Shown: positions 11,812-19,797 of the stretch, one piece after another
How the letters are laid out: every line of letters starts with the position of its first letter
Numbering within the stretch: the first letter of the stretch is position 1
Source of the DNA: Omnitrophica bacterium RIFCSPLOWO2_01_FULL_45_10
GTDB lineage: Bacteria; Omnitrophota; Gorgyraeia; 2-01-FULL-45-10
NCBI GenBank assembly: GCA_001804165.1
Contig: MHFL01000064.1
Coordinates: forward strand, 1 to 19,797
Length of the DNA stretch: 19,797 bases
Direction: 5' to 3'
Notes under the pieces: model-generated
Seen by the model: only the letters and a program-made list of their open reading frames with translations
Told to the model about the DNA's origin: nothing
The model's database searches: none
Translations under genes and position numbers: made by a program

Positions 11812-14800
11812 ATGAAAACACCTCACAAGATAGTCTCTACCGTAGTATCAATATCTTTTCTATTTAATACCTTAGTATCGGACATTGCCATTGGCGAGTC
11901 CCTTTTCTATCGTGACGCGCAAAAAGACAATTTGGCGCCGGCCAGCGTAACAAAACTCATAGAAGAATTCGCGGGTGATATTGACCGGATGGCGAAGACG
12001 CCGTCGCGGAAGCGTCCTGCCTTGCCCGAGTGGCTCGGCCAAAGAAAAGAAGGCTTCGCTAAGGCATGGGTAAGGACATATGCTAGCGAATTGTCGAAGC
12101 GCGTAATCGTAAATGTGCTTGAGAGCCGTGAATATAAAAGCATGACTCCGGAAGAGAGACTTAAGCACCTAACAACAGTCGAAGACGTATTTATAAAAGT
12201 CATTCAAGATAAATCAAAGAACATGCCCCGCTATCGCCGTGACACGCTGATTCAAGCGATACGCCAAGAATTTAAGGCCGGCCGTCTCATCGAAGGCCCT
12301 GCCGCGACCCAACATCCTGTTATTGCGAGCCCCACCTCGACGTCCCTCCCCGTCATTGCGAGGAGCGAAGCGACGAAGCAATCTCAAGAGACCGTGACCC
12401 GCGCCTCGGCGCCCGTCCGCCGTAGCTCCTCCGGAGATTCCGCGTTGAAGAGCGAAGGCGGAAGCGGGAAAGCGGTGGAAGGCGTTCTGCATACAGAACC
12501 GCACGCTATCGCTGTGGTCCTTGCGAAAAATATATTTGTCACAGCCAATGCCGCCGCCAAAACCGAACGGTATATTGTGATAGATAACACAGGCCCGATA
12601 CGCATATATCATATGGATGAAGCAGCGCAAAATCTCTCTGGTTACATCAAAAAAGCGCTTACAGGCGGCGCGATAGCATCTTTACGGCTTGTGTCAGAGA
12701 GAAATAAAGTCACAGCGTTCATCACCACAACCAATAAGCCCCGCGCCTCGGCGAGCGGGGCGATACTCGCCGAGACAGCACGATTTACTCAAGCCGACTT
12801 AAACACGACACTCGAAACACTGAAAGGATTCGCCGCAGCCCATCCTGTAATCACGGCGATTGCCGCCTTCTGCATAGTTATAGGTATAATCGTGGCGGCA
12901 TGGCGGTATCTCTTTCCCGTTAGCTGGCATCTCTCCCATCTCGATCGTGATAATAGCAGAGAAGTTTTAGCCAAGATGGGTTCTAGGGCAGTTCCAGGAT
13001 TAGTAAAAATTTTTAAAAATACGAATGAAACAGACAATAGACGTTACCTTGCCACAACAATATTGGAGAAAATAGGATGGGAACCGGCTAATCTTGATGA
13101 AGAGATTTTGTATGATATCGCAGGTATAAAGTATAAACGACTTATCGAGATAGGGATTCCGGCTATTCCGTTTTTGATCAGAGAAAAAGAACTGCCTCCG
13201 CCGTATTTTTTAAATGTCCCTAAGGCCATTGAGGCAATAAATGACCCAAGTAACACTAAATTGCTCGTAGAAAGTTTAGCAAGTCCGCATTCATCCGTTC
13301 GGGAAGCCTGCATTAAAGCATTAATCAATATAGACGACTCGCGGCTCAGACCACTGACAGCGGCCTGGTCCGCCGCCAAGAAAGAATATAATCATACACC
13401 AGAACCGTTGACCTATCACGATATATCGCTGATAAAAGAATGCATAAAGTCTGGAAGAGAGTTTAGGTTTAAGGTGGAATATACGCCTCCAGTGACTCAT
13501 GAAGAATTGGAAACGGTAATGGATAGGCGCGGACATCCAACAACAGGAAACAGTTACGAGACCTTTGTAGATGTTCCAGCGAAGCTCAGGATCATAGCCT
13601 TTCCCGATACACAACCCGCTCCCCGTGCCTCGGCAAGCGGATTTTTACCGCAAATTCCTTCTGCCGCCGAAAATCCTGTCGAAGGACTCACTAACGAGCT
13701 CAGAAAGTTTAAGCTCACCAAAAAAGAATTAGAGGTTTTAGGCTGGCTCCTAACCCCGGATGATTCTAAGACTATCGAAGAGCTGGCCAAAAAACATTAC
13801 GCTTCAAAGCGGACTATAGATTCTCATATCGCGAATATATACCTGAAATTACGGGTTTCTAACAGAATACAATTGTTTATTAAGATAGGAAGACTTCTAC
13901 GGAAAGAGCGAAAAGAAGGGAAAATCGAAAACGGTATTATAGCGAAAGAAATTCGCCTGACGCCAGAAGAATGGGCCGTACTTTCCCATATATTTGAAGG
14001 GAAATCTTCAAAAGAAACAGCCAATGCGTTAGGCAAGTCAGAAAAAACCGTCGATTTCCATTTGGCTAGAATATATGAAAAATGCGGGACGCCACTCGGT
14101 AAAGGCAGGATAGGCCTTGTTAAAATGTTATGGAGAGGCGAGATCGTATTAACCGGGAGCGAGGCTAAGGAAGGAACCGCTGTCACCCGCGCCTCGGCGA
14201 GCGGCGCTAAAATCAGAGTTCTCTTCGCGGATGATCCCGCAAATCCGGAAACGCTCGACTCGATCCGTCAAGAGCTTCTTAAAAATTTCGGCGGCGATGT
14301 TGAACTCACCGAAGACCACGGCGGAGGGAAGGATGAAGGATGGCTCCGTGAACAGATAAAAGTCCACAGGCCGCATGTAATCATAGTGCGTTCAGCCACT
14401 GACAGTTTCAGGGATCCGGCTTCTCCGATTTTCCAGATTGCGAAAGAATACGGCGTAAAGGCGATTATACGGGCCGGCGCCGGAGTTGACAATATAGATA
14501 TAGAAAGAGCTCGCGAATACGGCATTTCGGTAGCCCGAACCCACGGCAACGCGAATTCCGTAGCCGATTTAACACTCTTCCTATTAGCTTCTCTCGACAA
14601 AAAGATGCCGGCCATGAAAGAATTGAAACCTGTTTCGAGTTCTGATATCGAAAAAGTGGCCCGAACTGCGGTAGGCGAGTATTCAAAGCTTACCCGTAGC
14701 AGTAAAAAATGGGGCGCGATTTCTGAAGAGCTAAAAGAAGGACTAATAAGCCGCTGGGAACGGGATCTATTTGGCCGGTTGGCTGAGAACGAGATGGCAT

Positions 14801-17800
14801 CATTAGTTCAAGTATTAGAGGGGCGTACTATCGGGCTCCTTGGTTTTGGGCCTATTGCTCAAACAGTAGCCCGAAAACTGGAACTTGTGCGTGAATTAAC
14901 CGGCATATCCTTCACCGTTATCGCTCATTCCCGCAGTTTGGCGGCCGATAATTCGCTTGCCAAAGAATTAAACGTTATTCCTGTCTCTCGCTCAAGGCTC
15001 TTTGAAGAATCTGATATCGTCAGTATTCATCTTCCTGGCATTCCGAGCCTTGCGCTAACACCGGGTGAACTGAATAATCAGAAACTCCGAGTTATTATCA
15101 ATACCTCCAGGTCCAATCTTGCGGACGCCAAGATTCTTCAGAAGTTCGTAAAGGATAGAAAAGGGATCTATCTTGCGGATTTGGATATTACGGATGAACT
15201 TCAAGGGTTGATGGAGAGCAATCCTGATAATGTCGTTGTCCTCCCGCATATCGGAGCTTCAACTAAGGATGCCGGAAGCGGTGTCGAAGAGAGAACCGTT
15301 TCCGCGCTCACAGAAATGGTGGGCCTTCTTTTAGGCCGCGAGAATCCTTCCGAAGAGCCTGTGCTGGATATCGTAAACGGTATACAACCCGAAACCGTCG
15401 TCTCCGAAGAAGCAGATAAACGCGCATCGCGGACAGAGCGCGCCTCAACGAGCGGGGAAAATCTCATCCTAGGGCTTGCCGATGCGCTGGCAAGCGTCAA
15501 GGATATCGGTGCGGCAAGCGAATTGGCCGGCGAAGCGTATCTCTATCTTGCGAATAGCGTCAGATCGGCCGGCGGAGAGCTTGATTTGCCGAAAAGCGAA
15601 GGGACCCTGAAGGCCGGAGATGTATTTGTTCTGGCCGGTTCACCGGGAGAAGAGGCATCCTACGCTATCTGTGTCGCGGCTGATCAAGAGGGGTTGCTTG
15701 AAACGGTTGAAGTGACCAAAGATGGAAAAATAATTCTTGTGTCCACACGCCTTGAGAATCTAAAGTCAGCAAACGCTAAATTTATCAGACCCGGAAATAT
15801 AACTGAATCGGCTGAACTGTCGCGAATGATCGAAAAGGCGAATTTATATTTGGATCTGGCCGAAGCCGCAGAGGGCGATTATGATATAGATGCGATAGAG
15901 GACGTTCCTCAAGCCGGCGCCCCAGGTGAAACTATGAACGAGGGACGAGAGACGAATGACGAAAATCCCCGCGCCTCGGCGAGCGGGGAGGGAAGCAAGC
16001 CCAAGAGTCCTTCGCTGATAAACGAAGGCGCAATAGATGAATTTTTAAGCGCCGTTAGGGAACTATTGGCTCCTTTTAAGAAACAGTATAGTGAAAAAAC
16101 AGATGCAATACATCATTACGCGATACATTCTATAAACTTAGAGAAGGGGGTAGCTCCTAAAAAAGGTCCTAATCTGGCATATTGGCTTCAAGGACGTGAA
16201 CACAATCTTAGATGGCATGCTTCTGATGATGGTTTTCGCAGCGAGTTTGAGCCTGCAAAATGGATGGGTAAAAAATCCATTCCGCAAGAACTTGGTTCAA
16301 TGATGACCGATTTTAGGATCAGGCGTATTTCTATAGATAGAGACGTCCTGTTATCACCGGGAGAACCTGGCCGTTGGGAAGAGGTAAAATTAATCCTTAA
16401 CAATGTTCCCGATATAGTTACGACATCGAGGAGTGCGCTTCCTCGTTTAAAGAGAGGCAGGCCATTCTACATACTATTAAAGCTCAAGATAGACGATCAA
16501 AAATCTCTGTTCGTATCTCTGGGAAAAGCATTGGTTGAATCCGACGCCTACTTCCTATATATCAAACGGTATTCCGATTATACCCCAGACTATATCTTGG
16601 AAAAGGGGCCCGATGGTACGCTTTTGATTCGTCCCGTTGATAAAAACGCCGCCCCTTCGCCGGCTGAATCCAAACACCCGCAAAGCGGCAAGCGCGCCTC
16701 GGCGAGCGGGATCGTATCGGAAGAAGATGCAAGAATGGCGGCGGGGCAAATCATAGATGAGATAAAAGATATACGCGCAAATGAACATGGTACTATGACG
16801 CTCTATCCCCAATCCCCTGCTCTTGAAAGTATCAGAGAGAAACAGAAGTTAAGAATTCCTTTACGTATTTCCATGGATAGTCTTTATAAAGAAGAGGACA
16901 TAGAAAGCATGAGGGATGATTTAACAGTCGCGATACAAAATTTGGATACAATGGTCGCGATATTTAGGGGTATTCAAAAAAAGTTAGATAAGAGGCCCTA
17001 TGACTTATATTTCAAGTTAGGCCGTATTTGCATAGAAGTCTGCCCTTTTACGGAACGTAGCACTACGCTAGAAATGTGGATATATTATACTGATCATTTT
17101 TACGAGCATCGTTATGGCCGAGAAGGTTTTGGCCATTCGGCAGATATCGAGCTTGAAAAATTGCCAAATGGAGCTGTTCTGCCAAAGAAGGCCCCTCAGC
17201 GTTTCTTTAGCATAAACAAATATGTTGAAAAACAAATAAAAGAAAGTATAAGCGGCATTGTTAAAAATAATATGCCGGAATATGCTAACGCCGTTAACGG
17301 TATATTAGAGCATAAGGGCATAAGAATTTTAGGCAAGAGGTTTAGCGATACGCCTCGTAAACTGGAAATCTATTTTACGGATACTGCGACGAGTGGGAGT
17401 TTCTGCGGTATTGAGATAACGGAAGATGAGAAACGGCCGAAACAAGCGCTATACAGAGTGCGCCATTCGCGCGGCCGTATAGGCGCAAATTTTGAAATGA
17501 CTGAAAACTGGCGGGATAGCGTAGCGGCAACACCCGCTCAACTCAAAGGGACCGCGATAAAAGGTGTGGAGGCGGCTCTTGCAAAACCCGAAAAATTCGA
17601 AAAAGCCTTAGACAAAGTCGCTATTGAGCTTTCCCGCGCCTCGGCCTCAGGGCAGACGAGCTATGACAGGGAGAGAAACGCTAAGACAGCCGATGAGGTT
17701 ATTGAGCGGGCGGTACGGATGGCGAAATCCGTTTTTGACACTCTGGGGGATGGAATAGACCGTTCTAAAAATTTTGTTGATGTCATCGCTATTTTACAAA

Positions 17801-19797
17801 AGTTGCTACCGGAGCTTTCGGGGAAACCTCTCGCGAATATTCCCGAAACACCCGCAAGCCTGGCCGCTATTATTAACGATGAGATTGACCTCGCAGATTT
17901 TAGCGTAAGTGGCCCCATCGTCTGCGAATATCTAAAGATAGCAAAGCAAGAACAAGATACAATAAAGATAGGTATCGACGATGCGAAACTGACACGATTA
18001 TTGGGTCCTGATGCCGAGCATTTCATAAATGGCATTATGCTTAACGCGGGATATTTCCCGGTGAGAGGCGTGAACGATGTTTATGTATTGCATAAAGGCA
18101 ATACCGATTCCAAGCTGCAAATGATATGCGATGATCTTGTGGGATCCGTAGCCCTTGTCCTGACAGATACTTACGCGCAGAAATTAGATACGTCGGTTGA
18201 AAAAACATCGCTCCGGGGCGGTGGTCAGCATGTGTCTGTAATAATCAGAAACGGTAATGATGCTTTTCAGATATTTAATTTTAGCGCAATGCGTGTGGCG
18301 GATTTAAAATTTGGGCTGAAACTCACAACTAGCACTAGGACTGCTCGTATGTCCTACATCGCTGATAATGCGGAACCAGTAAAAACACCTCATGAGCTCA
18401 TGGAGATCACAAAAAGAGAGTTAAGTAGGTTAGAGGAAGACAGAAAAAGGTGGGTTGAAAGCCCAAAATCTGAAGGCCGCGCCTCGGCGAGCGGAATACT
18501 TGATGCAAGGAGGCAGTATAACTATATCGCGACGCCGCGCGCTATTAGAATGGCAGATTACATTATCAGTAGTCGTCAAAACGCCGTTACTCTTGATGAG
18601 TATCGGCCGGCATGGGATGAGGTTAAAGCGAGATTAAACGATGTTTGGAAAGAAACAGGCATAAAAGGTAATAGCGAGCTGCCTTCTACGCCTGAAGAAC
18701 TCGCGGCATTAATAGGAAAGAGCACATATGAAGGAATAAATTTCAATAACGGCCGAACACCGGATGAGCTTGCGTGCGAACTCCTTAGCCTCGCAACACG
18801 ACGGTTTGTCCGGGTTGATAACGCCCTTTCGCAGAGATTAGGCGTTCCGCTTGAGGTCATCAATGCCATCTTTATGCTGGATGATTATGCAATACTTCCA
18901 GGGGGCGTCTATGGTCTCAAAGCGCTTCTTACGCCCGAAATAGCGTCTTCATCGGCCCAGCTCTTACGTGCGATATGCGCTCTTGAATCAGATTCGGAGA
19001 TAAGGAACATTCTTCCGATAAATAGAGAAGGCATAGAAGCGCTGGGTAACGAAGTTAAAATATCGTGCCATAGCCTTCTGGGCGAATATAGCCCGCTTGT
19101 CATTACCATTGCCGAACGTGAAGAAAAAAGCGCGAAAAACTACTCATATTCCATAACAGGCAACTATTATGAGAAAAATTCATCAGAATACACTGATATA
19201 GACGAAATGGCCACCGATCTTATCGTCGCGATAAGAGAGGCTGATAGATATTTTGGCAATATATACACAGGCTCCGTAGTGAACCTGCATAGGGCTCAGT
19301 TCGGTCCGACTTATCGCGCCTCGGCCCCTCGCGAGAGTGCCTCGGGACAGGCGAGCGGAGAGGATAAACCTAAAGCTAAAGCGGATCCGCAGGCGTTCTT
19401 GCGAAGGGAACTGTTGCCCTTGCTGAGAGAGAACGCGCCTCAAATCGGTAAGCCGCGCGCTCAGGATTTAGTGCTTGCTAAAGATGAAACAATAGCAGGA
19501 AATGTCCGCAGGGCCAGCGTCATATTGGGGAAAGATGGTTTATTGGCATTCTCTATGCAGTATCAATATGCTCAAGATGTGACACATGAAACAGCTAAAT
19601 ACCTTGTTTGTTTTGGCCCGAAAGACACAAGGATTTATACCGATACATATAAGAATGGCGCAGATTATTTGCATAAAGGATCTAATCCTCTTTTGCGTTT
19701 GGTAGAAGACAGCGAAGGCAAGCTCCATGCCGTCGTGAAGAAAGATTTCTTTAGGGCGTATAGAGAAAAGGTCGAACAATTGGAAGCGCCGGGGATA
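11812..19797 (+). CDS. Giant modular membrane protein with RASASG-separated domains (3' end outside window)
   Basis: One frame of 2662 codons without a stop, starting at ATG 11812 (Shine-Dalgarno GGAG at 11803-11806) and open at the right edge. Residues 1-29 look like an export signal, followed by DNLAPAS, a motif I associate with large Omnitrophota proteins. Then come an unknown region (30-196), a small domain (about 220-309), a membrane helix (346-364), HEAT-like helices (about 368-530), two LuxR-type HTH domains (635-697 and 716-773), a D-2-hydroxyacid dehydrogenase-like domain (799-1190), a charged region (1216-1385), and unrecognised modules at 1393-1626, 1634-1940, 1948-2221, 2229-2500 and 2517 onward. 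RASASG-type linkers stand at nearly every boundary. If the N-terminus is exported and residues 346-364 cross the membrane, the HTH and dehydrogenase domains face the cytoplasm. Function is unknown. Confidence 0.88.
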   Translation, partial: MKTPHKIVSTVVSISFLFNTLVSDIAIGESLFYRDAQKDNLAPASVTKLIEEFAGDIDRMAKTPSRKRPALPEWLGQRKEGFAKAWVRTYASELSKRVIVNVLESREYKSMTPEERLKHLTTVEDVFIKVIQDKSKNMPRYRRDTLIQAIRQEFKAGRLIEGPAATQHPVIASPTSTSLPVIARSEATKQSQETVTRASAPVRRSSSGDSALKSEGGSGKAVEGVLHTEPHAIAVVLAKNIFVTANAAAKTERYIVIDNTGPIRIYHMDEAAQNLSGYIKKALTGGAIASLRLVSERNKVTAFITTTNKPRASASGAILAETARFTQADLNTTLETLKGFAAAHPVITAIAAFCIVIGIIVAAWRYLFPVSWHLSHLDRDNSREVLAKMGSRAVPGLVKIFKNTNETDNRRYLATTILEKIGWEPANLDEEILYDIAGIKYKRLIEIGIPAIPFLIREKELPPPYFLNVPKAIEAINDPSNTKLLVESLASPHSSVREACIKALINIDDSRLRPLTAAWSAAKKEYNHTPEPLTYHDISLIKECIKSGREFRFKVEYTPPVTHEELETVMDRRGHPTTGNSYETFVDVPAKLRIIAFPDTQPAPRASASGFLPQIPSAAENPVEGLTNELRKFKLTKKELEVLGWLLTPDDSKTIEELAKKHYASKRTIDSHIANIYLKLRVSNRIQLFIKIGRLLRKERKEGKIENGIIAKEIRLTPEEWAVLSHIFEGKSSKETANALGKSEKTVDFHLARIYEKCGTPLGKGRIGLVKMLWRGEIVLTGSEAKEGTAVTRASASGAKIRVLFADDPANPETLDSIRQELLKNFGGDVELTEDHGGGKDEGWLREQIKVHRPHVIIVRSATDSFRDPASPIFQIAKEYGVKAIIRAGAGVDNIDIERAREYGISVARTHGNANSVADLTLFLLASLDKKMPAMKELKPVSSSDIEKVARTAVGEYSKLTRSSKKWGAISEELKEGLISRWERDLFGRLAENEMASLVQVLEGRTIGLLGFGPIAQTVARKLELVRELTGISFTVIAHSRSLAADNSLAKELNVIPVSRSRLFEESDIVSIHLPGIPSLALTPGELNNQKLRVIINTSRSNLADAKILQKFVKDRKGIYLADLDITDELQGLMESNPDNVVVLPHIGASTKDAGSGVEERTVSALTEMVGLLLGRENPSEEPVLDIVNGIQPETVVSEEADKRASRTERASTSGENLILGLADALASVKDIGAASELAGEAYLYLANSVRSAGGELDLPKSEGTLKAGDVFVLAGSPGEEASYAICVAADQEGLLETVEVTKDGKIILVSTRLENLKSANAKFIRPGNITESAELSRMIEKANLYLDLAEAAEGDYDIDAIEDVPQAGAPGETMNEGRETNDENPRASASGEGSKPKSPSLINEGAIDEFLSAVRELLAPFKKQYSEKTDAIHHYAIHSINLEKGVAPKKGPNLAYWLQGREHNLRWHASDDGFRSEFEPAKWMGKKSIPQELGSMMTDFRIRRISIDRDVLLSPGEPGRWEEVKLILNNVPDIVTTSRSALPRLKRGRPFYILLKLKIDDQKSLFVSLGKALVESDAYFLYIKRYSDYTPDYILEKGPDGTLLIRPVDKNAAPSPAESKHPQSGKRASASGIVSEEDARMAAGQIIDEIKDIRANEHGTMTLYPQSPALESIREKQKLRIPLRISMDSLYKEEDIESMRDDLTVAIQNLDTMVAIFRGIQKKLDKRPYDLYFKLGRICIEVCPFTERSTTLEMWIYYTDHFYEHRYGREGFGHSADIELEKLPNGAVLPKKAPQRFFSINKYVEKQIKESISGIVKNNMPEYANAVNGILEHKGIRILGKRFSDTPRKLEIYFTDTATSGSFCGIEITEDEKRPKQALYRVRHSRGRIGANFEMTENWRDSVAATPAQLKGTAIKGVEAALAKPEKFEKALDKVAIELSRASASGQTSYDRERNAKTADEVIERAVRMAKSVFDTLGDGIDRSKNFVDVIAILQKLLPELSGKPLANIPETPASLAAIINDEIDLADFSVSGPIVCEYLKIAKQEQDTIKIGIDDAKLTRLLGPDAEHFINGIMLNAGYFPVRGVNDVYVLHKGNTDSKLQMICDDLVGSVALVLTDTYAQKLDTSVEKTSLRGGGQHVSVIIRNGNDAFQIFNFSAMRVADLKFGLKLTTSTRTARMSYIADNAEPVKTPHELMEITKRELSRLEEDRKRWVESPKSEGRASASGILDARRQYNYIATPRAIRMADYIISSRQNAVTLDEYRPAWDEVKARLNDVWKETGIKGNSELPSTPEELAALIGKSTYEGINFNNGRTPDELACELLSLATRRFVRVDNALSQRLGVPLEVINAIFMLDDYAILPGGVYGLKALLTPEIASSSAQLLRAICALESDSEIRNILPINREGIEALGNEVKISCHSLLGEYSPLVITIAEREEKSAKNYSYSITGNYYEKNSSEYTDIDEMATDLIVAIREADRYFGNIYTGSVVNLHRAQFGPTYRASAPRESASGQASGEDKPKAKADPQAFLRRELLPLLRENAPQIGKPRAQDLVLAKDETIAGNVRRASVILGKDGLLAFSMQYQYAQDVTHETAKYLVCFGPKDTRIYTDTYKNGADYLHKGSNPLLRLVEDSEGKLHAVVKKDFFRAYREKVEQLEAPGI
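12353..12385. repeat. Palindromic repeat unit in the giant gene (copy 3)
   Basis: The unit runs from TCATTGCGAGG through hairpin AGCGAAGCG to CGAAGCAATCTC, the same ends as the units at 3770 and 5673. It is translated within ViaRSEATKQSQ at about residues 181-191, in the low-complexity stretch just before the first RASA motif. A partial copy (TTATTGCGAG) lies at 12320-12329. Confidence 0.8.
12847..12903 (+). other. Predicted transmembrane segment of the giant protein
   Basis: Residues 346-364 (VITAIAAFCIVIGIIVAAW) form an uninterrupted hydrophobic stretch of 19 residues. Arg365 follows, and the next residues lead into HEAT-like helices. It is the only strong internal membrane helix I see in the 2662 residues. 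Confidence 0.7.
13714..14130 (+). other. Tandem LuxR/GerE-type helix-turn-helix domains in the giant protein
   Basis: The first copy starts LTKKELEVLGWLL (residue 635) and continues through SKRTIDSHIANIYLKLRVSNR. The second starts LTPEEWAVLSHIFEGKSSKE (716) and continues SEKTVDFHLARIYEKCG. Both keep the LuxR-type order: LT-x-x-E, a K-E/E-E helix, then the recognition helix K/R-T-[IV]-D-x-H and IY-x-K. Tandem copies in one chain are unusual. Confidence 0.8.
14206..15381 (+). other. D-2-hydroxyacid (phosphoglycerate) dehydrogenase-like domain in the giant protein
   Basis: Residues 799-1190 align with the family. RAGAGVDNIDIERAREYGI (887-905) matches the catalytic-domain signature. GLLGFGPIA (1008-1016) is the nucleotide-binding glycine loop. 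NTSRSN (Arg1100) and PHIGAST (His1146) hold two of the catalytic residues. The catalytic Glu is not clearly aligned (near LDITDEL). HSRS after strand 2 may favour NADP over NAD. About 45 extra residues lie before the glycine loop. Confidence 0.85.

Follow-up and report, generated by a model that had tools for sequence, protein, structure and literature searches.

What kind of protein joins a signal-peptide-like start, regulator-type helix-turn-helix (HTH) domains and a dehydrogenase in one chain, with nearly the same short linker recurring along it? The question is raised by a giant open frame on the forward strand of the window, the 19,797-nucleotide stretch analysed here, which forms part of contig C64 (44,397 bases) of a 1.43 Mb genome assembled in 64 contigs at 86.7% completeness. 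As a preliminary description of this DNA had stated, the frame is uninterrupted for at least 2662 codons: it opens with an ATG at 11812 and runs stop-free to 19797, the last base ahead of a scaffold gap (Ns, C64:19798-19869) at which the window ends. Extending it to a stop codon, as that description had proposed, leads to a candidate stop, but only across two unread gaps; C64:19871-20461 is open again and carries an RLSASG linker, a second gap spans C64:20463-20471, and a 74-aa frame follows, with the last candidate stop after C64:20694. Because the gap sequence is unread, the joints across both gaps are presumptive, and the gene would span 11812 to about 20694 on the contig, or about 8.9 kb.

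Modules of the giant frame

The encoded protein begins (11812-11901) with MKTPHK, a hydrophobic stretch and then DNLAPAS, a predicted signal-peptide-like start judged by eye, which by eye also resembles the starts of the related giants P0123 and P0125; weak matches were found for aa 1-46 in genomes G017 and G023 and for the first ~50 aa in G020. A longer repeat, RASAPVRRSSSGDSALKSEGGSGK, lies at 12400-12474; it contains the first linker, RRSSSG (12418-12435), and is 85-88% identical in DNA to copies on contigs C16, C33 and C60 of the same genome. Beyond a RASASG linker (12742-12759) lies the one TM-like helix found after the N-terminus (aa 346-364, 12847-12903; hydropathy 2.73). It is followed by a HEAT-like region (aa 379-517, 12946-13362), for which similar repeat stretches occur in giants of two relatives, G013 and G025, but whose PF13646 match (E=0.004) lies below the cut-off.

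After a further RASASG linker (13624-13641), two LuxR-type HTHs (aa 632-689, 13705-13878, and aa 712-759, 13945-14088) match PF00196 and NCBIfam models, with a PF00196 score over aa 632-759 of 69.6 bits, in two stretches, against a cut-off of 23.5. The next RASASG linker (14188-14205), directly after which the match to the relative G023 starts, borders the 2-hydroxyacid dehydrogenase module (aa 799-1196, 14206-15399), where PF02826 and PF00389 both exceed their cut-offs. A RASTSG linker (15439-15456) then opens a series of five modules lacking any Pfam match above cut-off: aa 1216-1386 (15457-15969), aa 1393-1627 (15988-16692), aa 1634-1941 (16711-17634) and aa 1948-2222 (17653-18477), each with no Pfam match, and aa 2229-2506 (18496-19329), with only PF17941 below cut-off. 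They are separated by RASASG linkers at 15970-15987, 16693-16710, 17635-17652 (written in different codons, CGC GCC TCG GCC TCA GGG) and 18478-18495. A RESASG linker (19330-19347), embedded in the longer form RASAPRESASGQASG, precedes the start of the last module before the gap (19348-19797; no Pfam match). The window protein thus carries ten R-x-S-[AST]-S-G linkers: RRSSSG, RASASG seven times, RASTSG and RESASG. The signal peptide (as a prediction), the membrane helix, the LuxR HTH, the dehydrogenase and the five or more unrecognised modules of the preliminary description are all borne out, and its HEAT-like domain holds as a repeat resemblance without reaching the Pfam threshold.

Exchanged modules and conserved ends in related giants

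That such a protein was assembled by module shuffling, as had been proposed, is supported by the dehydrogenase module, which recurs in other giants in varying places and among different enzyme neighbours. A search with aa 795-1215, admitting only proteins of 0.55-1.75 times the length of the 2661-aa protein, found the module in 13 other giants (1629-4424 aa) at 33-52% identity, with the matched part starting anywhere from residue 36 (P0127, which begins inside the module) to residue 2815 (P0133). Arg1100 and His1146, which we take to be active-site residues, are identical in 14 of 14 giants; with substrate- and NAD-binding domains and this Arg and His, the module (aa 799-1196) belongs to the 2-hydroxyacid dehydrogenase superfamily. 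It resembles D-3-phosphoglycerate dehydrogenase and other 2-hydroxyacid dehydrogenases in having both Pfam domains above cut-off, but differs from D-3-phosphoglycerate dehydrogenase in sitting within an exported-type giant and in scoring 75.8 bits with the SerA-type model TIGR01327, far below its cut-off of 454. The G023 copy of the module reaches 61% identity, with no match over the rest of its 1492-aa frame.

Pfam scans of eight of the 13 dehydrogenase giants revealed the companions, with matches to acetate kinase, phosphotransacetylase, alanine dehydrogenase and others running over nearly the full length: acetate kinase (profile positions 2-355 of 392) with phosphotransacetylase in P0124, a GPI-type isomerase with both alanine dehydrogenase domains in P0123, both alanine dehydrogenase domains again in P0122 and P0126, a glutamate-type dehydrogenase in P0125 and P0126, and phosphoglucomutase domains I-III in P0130. 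Precomputed Pfam accessions in other dehydrogenase giants presumably denote hexokinase, adenylate kinase and PdxA-type domains. Pairs of these giants can be alike at their ends and in the dehydrogenase: P0123 and P0125 match in head, dehydrogenase and tail and in no other stretch, P0126 and P0130 have a common head, the dehydrogenase and a 51-aa C-terminal stretch, and P0121 and P0124 have dehydrogenase and tail in common. P0126, P0128 and P0130 have in common another type of head, 34-51% identical between them, which together with the 51-aa stretch of P0126 and P0130 perhaps represents an independent set of conserved ends. In P0126 (aa 1447-1722) the alanine dehydrogenase domains are permuted, the C-terminal Pfam domain standing ahead of the N-terminal one.

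Conserved ends are clearest in a family defined by the head of a linker-bearing giant on contig C48 of the same genome. A search with its aa 20-620 returned 231 proteins at E <=1e-3, and the best 120 of 231 were analysed; P0001 and P0002 among them are the C48 giant itself and a giant of G026, whose tails were among the profile seeds. The conserved head of ~480 aa is of the EreA/ChaN-like type, and precomputed Pfam domains of many kinds are present in 34 of these 120. Organism-named members among the matches listed are labelled Omnitrophota, Omnitrophica or Omnitrophus in 24 of 25 cases and Dehalococcoidia in one. At the other end, an iterated tail profile matched 103 of the best 120 in its last round, and all of these matches lay in the final 12 residues; 4 of 13 hits in round 2 and 2 of 33 in round 3 fell short of the end, in the last two rounds none, and five of the 17 misses are named 'partial' (P0003, P0008, P0024, P0078, P0091). 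The tail was also tested in three splits made at random rather than by relatedness. Each time, profiles from the last 150 residues of 60 proteins recovered 50 of the 59 tails held out, and none of 295 internal pieces or 225 other frames. Pairwise BLAST matches tails in just 17% of pairs, and the tail is therefore a profile-level family.

Between these ends the cargo turns over. Head, tail and a middle longer than 250 aa are all present in 86 proteins. Their 3655 pairs all match in the head, and a match covering at least one tenth of the middle is seen in 8.3%; where heads are more than 60% identical, 73% of pairs are still without a middle match over a tenth. The C48 giant of G000 and the C71 giant of G026 illustrate this, with 48% identity in the head, 35% in the tail and 64% in a nearby gene (in G000 it lies ~2.3 kb upstream; in G026 the distance upstream is ~17 kb and another giant intervenes), and no match at 1e-5 between their middles of 826 and 2125 aa. 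One head-family member, P0007 (2646 aa), has in mid-chain a PF14890 domain, presumably intein-like.

Similar frames occur elsewhere in the genome of the window protein: five other contigs (C16, C33, C37, C48, C60) hold motif-bearing frames of 831-2776 aa, several of them cut by contig ends or gaps, with sigma-70 regions, a cytidine-deaminase-like domain, an M48 peptidase, a NERD nuclease-related domain and a GNAT match below cut-off as cargo, and no Pfam match in the C16 frame. Giants of G026 and G001 contain protein kinase, GNAT, TPR and sigma-70 regions, and a G020 frame yielded no Pfam match. The surface or signalling system suggested at first is only one possible reading; the cargo of the related giants comprises metabolic enzymes as well as regulators, and an exported or anchored enzyme array suits that cargo at least as well. 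Sigma-70 regions were seen inside giant linker-bearing proteins at L014:11182-19467 (-), which has a signal-peptide-like start, and at L012:3-8330 (+), there below cut-off.

The window protein itself is without the EreA/ChaN-like head, which in this genome was found on C48 and C16 only. Its C-terminal end is at noise level with the tail profiles (two give E 3.4 and E 8.7, and another does not list it up to E 10), and pairwise comparison with 24 tails, where the score was reached by 1 of 500 shuffles for two tails and by 2 and 3 for two more, is only suggestive of a resemblance. Its linkers are common to the C48 giant, which has both head and tail, and to the C16 giant, which has the head and whose end is cut off. 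Sharing linkers and the dehydrogenase, it can therefore be placed in the broader class of modular giants of the exported type, whose export is predicted. In support of that prediction, an N-terminal hydrophobic stretch is present in 11 of the 13 dehydrogenase giants, compared with 15 of 260 internal pieces, and in 106 of the best 120 of 231 head-family proteins, compared with 136 of 2400.

We lean, with moderate confidence, towards placing the gene in a large class of giants, exported or anchored in the membrane, whose enzyme and regulator modules are swappable. A signal peptide would start export of the chain, and every module would fold separately, with RxSxSG between modules as a flexible hydrophilic spacer. 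In this lineage one spacer DNA, near-identical at many borders, would have been copied there, probably via duplication and recombination of module ends, and in the best-sampled giant family the two ends stay while the cargo between them changes. The resulting array would probably be a tethered enzyme set at the cell envelope or directed towards a partner cell. Sec export, tethering, cargo activity and a sorting role of the tail are what we infer from the sequences. A bolder form, which we regard as tentative and on balance doubtful, is that head-to-tail chains export sets of metabolic and regulatory enzymes with interchangeable cargo, as a delivery or compartment system, so that enzyme cascades would run outside the producing cell's cytoplasm or within a partner or prey cell. 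Several observations weigh against the exported-giant reading: it is difficult to see what HTH and NAD-dependent modules would do outside the cytoplasm; the window protein lacks the head of the head family, and the tail profiles do not recognise its end; and of 57 relatives, only 17 are matched by a nine-tail profile (36 places, seeds included, at any position in frames of 345-10,736 aa).

The TM helix ahead of the HTH and dehydrogenase makes a half-exported, half-cytoplasmic topology a serious rival. Our own scheme too allows for a possible stop-transfer at the helix that follows aa 345, which may keep the HTH, the dehydrogenase and all modules behind them cytoplasmic; taken further, the protein would be a membrane-anchored regulator of which only aa ~30-345 are exported, transfer stopping at aa 346-364 and the HEAT, LuxR HTH, dehydrogenase and later modules forming a large cytoplasmic sensor-regulator. 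HTH and NAD-dependent modules belong in a cytoplasm and would fit there, and the helix is a clear one. Against this stand the relatives: no TM-like segment lies between the start and the dehydrogenase in 11 of the 13 other giants (P0127 starts inside the module), nor after aa 100 in 91 of the best 120 of 231 head-family giants, so a stop-transfer would be peculiar to the window protein. We consider this alternative possible, though unlikely.

Linkers and the DNA that encodes them

R-x-S-[AST]-S-G occurs 88 times in the 43,551 aa of 17 frames that carry the motif, are 700 aa or longer and come from four genomes, against a mean of 0.2 and a maximum of 1 in shuffles (50 per protein), an excess that describes these 17 proteins rather than genomes because the contigs were picked for their hits. 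The placement of linkers at module borders, as first described, is upheld by one test and not by another. None of 40 linkers lies inside a Pfam or NCBIfam match, compared with 4.3 expected (six of nine scanned giants), with matches entered by hand and sub-threshold ones omitted, one of which, a low-complexity match (C37 frame aa 114-161), touches a linker at aa 160; BLAST alignments, however, cross 14 of 88 linkers against 16.6 expected at random, no difference from chance, and this non-significant result also counts against the exported-giant reading. Linker flanks are 18.8% hydrophobic, compared with 32.7% at random positions (0.188 vs 0.327, s.d. 0.011). The RxSxSG stretches are hydrophilic spacers, and their composition suggests that they may act as flexible ones. 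RASASG is a lineage-specific spacer: RxS[AST]SG appears in only 3 of the best 120 of 231 head-family giants and in 1 of the 13 dehydrogenase giants.

At the DNA level, the 17-mer CGCGCCTCGGCGAGCGG has 9 exact copies and 6 with <=2 mismatches in this genome, where a reversed-pattern control gave 0, and at <=3 mismatches there are 24 against 4 in the control. All but one of the 15 near copies share one frame inside long frames (12 encoding RASASG, one RASTSG, one RAPASG); the exceptional copy, with 2 mismatches, sits in a 29-aa frame and may be chance. The repeat at 12352-12387 behaves in contrast, recurring at 24 other places on both strands. This dispersed DNA repeat, of the VIARSEATKQS type, was taken up in frame and without a stop by the giant frame. 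Other genomes use other versions: linkers of G001 favour RASTSG with CGCGCATCGACGAGCGG, those of G020 RLSASG, and those of G026 RGSASG and R-x-SSSG. Among 292 genomes drawn from the class, the linker pattern CGCNNNTCNNCGAGCGG scored hits clearly above the reversed control in G000 (12/0), G001 (11/0), G020 (6/1) and G026 (21/0). G200, of the same class and another family, gave seven hits against one in the control, perhaps also an excess. Assembly around a shared DNA sequence, another early claim, thus holds within this genome, not between genomes; since versions differ and the motif is so rare in the head family, shuffling is independent of the RASASG DNA.

Of 35 linker copies in this genome, 18 encode serine 3 with TCN and 17 with AGY, and most (26) encode serine 5 with AGC. 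The near-equal use of TCN and AGY at serine 3 points to selection on residues, and we read the whole as recent spacer-DNA copying within each genome, probably atop such selection. The same codon usage suits a second alternative, in which the chain is a polyprotein that is cleaved into its single proteins once exported and RxSxSG serves this lineage as the recognition site. Across the 88 copies the R, both S and the G are fixed while x varies, and linkers avoid recognised domains. The rarity of the motif among relatives argues that the architecture works without RxSxSG, and we hold cleavage at the linkers to be improbable.

Rickettsia palindromic elements are selfish repeats that insert in frame into genes, and the linker might similarly be a selfish short DNA repeat. 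The 17-mer is near-identical throughout the genome, a dispersed repeat does lie in the window, and several linkers have longer repeat forms. Such elements, however, have copies outside genes and in several frames, a pattern not seen for the linker 17-mer; the single frame of 14 of 15 near copies largely refutes this idea, leaving it very little probability. RASASG as a mobile DNA element was rejected on the same count. That scaffolding fused unrelated genes is suggested by the gap at the window end and can practically be dismissed, given 2662 codons without gap or stop and similar long frames in many other assemblies.

Comparison with known systems

The favoured exported or anchored module strings invite comparison with several known systems. 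MARTX toxins are one long secreted chain, with varying effector modules in the middle, a cysteine protease domain and RTX repeats. The likeness is a long chain with different modules in its middle; unlike them, the window protein has neither RTX repeats nor a cysteine protease domain in its Pfam list, a list of limited sensitivity from a protein whose end is missing, and the cargo of related giants includes ordinary metabolic enzymes. The EreA/ChaN-like fold is a likeness confined to the head of the second giant family. Autotransporters have a C-terminal beta-barrel, in contrast to the predicted alpha/beta tail of the C48 giant, a paralogue. Polymorphic toxin systems (PMC3482391) similarly combine a conserved trafficking part with exchanged domains, whereas the head family keeps its C-terminus and varies its middle. 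Type IX secretion cargo likewise carries a common C-terminal domain on different proteins, but that domain is described as a beta-sandwich (PMC11285876), and the C48 tail is predicted as alpha/beta.

Giant Omnitrophota ORFs are themselves known, as ORFs >20 kb with few annotated domains, and are described as poorly conserved and of unclear function (Seymour et al. 2023, PMC10066038). By that length the window gene, at about 8.9 kb, is not a giant ORF. Adhesion, carbohydrate-binding and wall-degrading domains are mentioned for published giant ORFs (PMC10066038, PMC11573180, PMC12057145, PMC13104272). PMC12057145 notes a related large protein with a signal peptide, and one paper raises the possibility that smaller proteins are processed out of such giants (PMC13104272, citing West-Roberts et al. 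2023). Within the portions of the literature on giant Omnitrophota proteins that were searched, no description was found of conserved ends with exchanged enzyme cargo. Our best reading is that the architecture, exported or anchored strings of swappable enzymes, is new within these known giant proteins.

With conserved ends enclosing exchanged cargo, part of the Omnitrophota giants would have a recognisable plan, turning a 'giant ORF of unknown function' into something testable through export or anchoring by the tail, cutting at the linkers and extracellular activity of the cargo. A further puzzle is what acetate kinase, phosphotransacetylase or phosphoglucomutase domains would be doing on one chain behind a signal peptide. 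Like the published ORFs of this phylum, the frames found here can be very long and poor in annotated domains; the EreA/ChaN-like head was also observed in open frames of 35,113 (G321:C37), 23,964 (G311:C88), 16,199 (G318:C26) and 13,048 aa (G306:C44).
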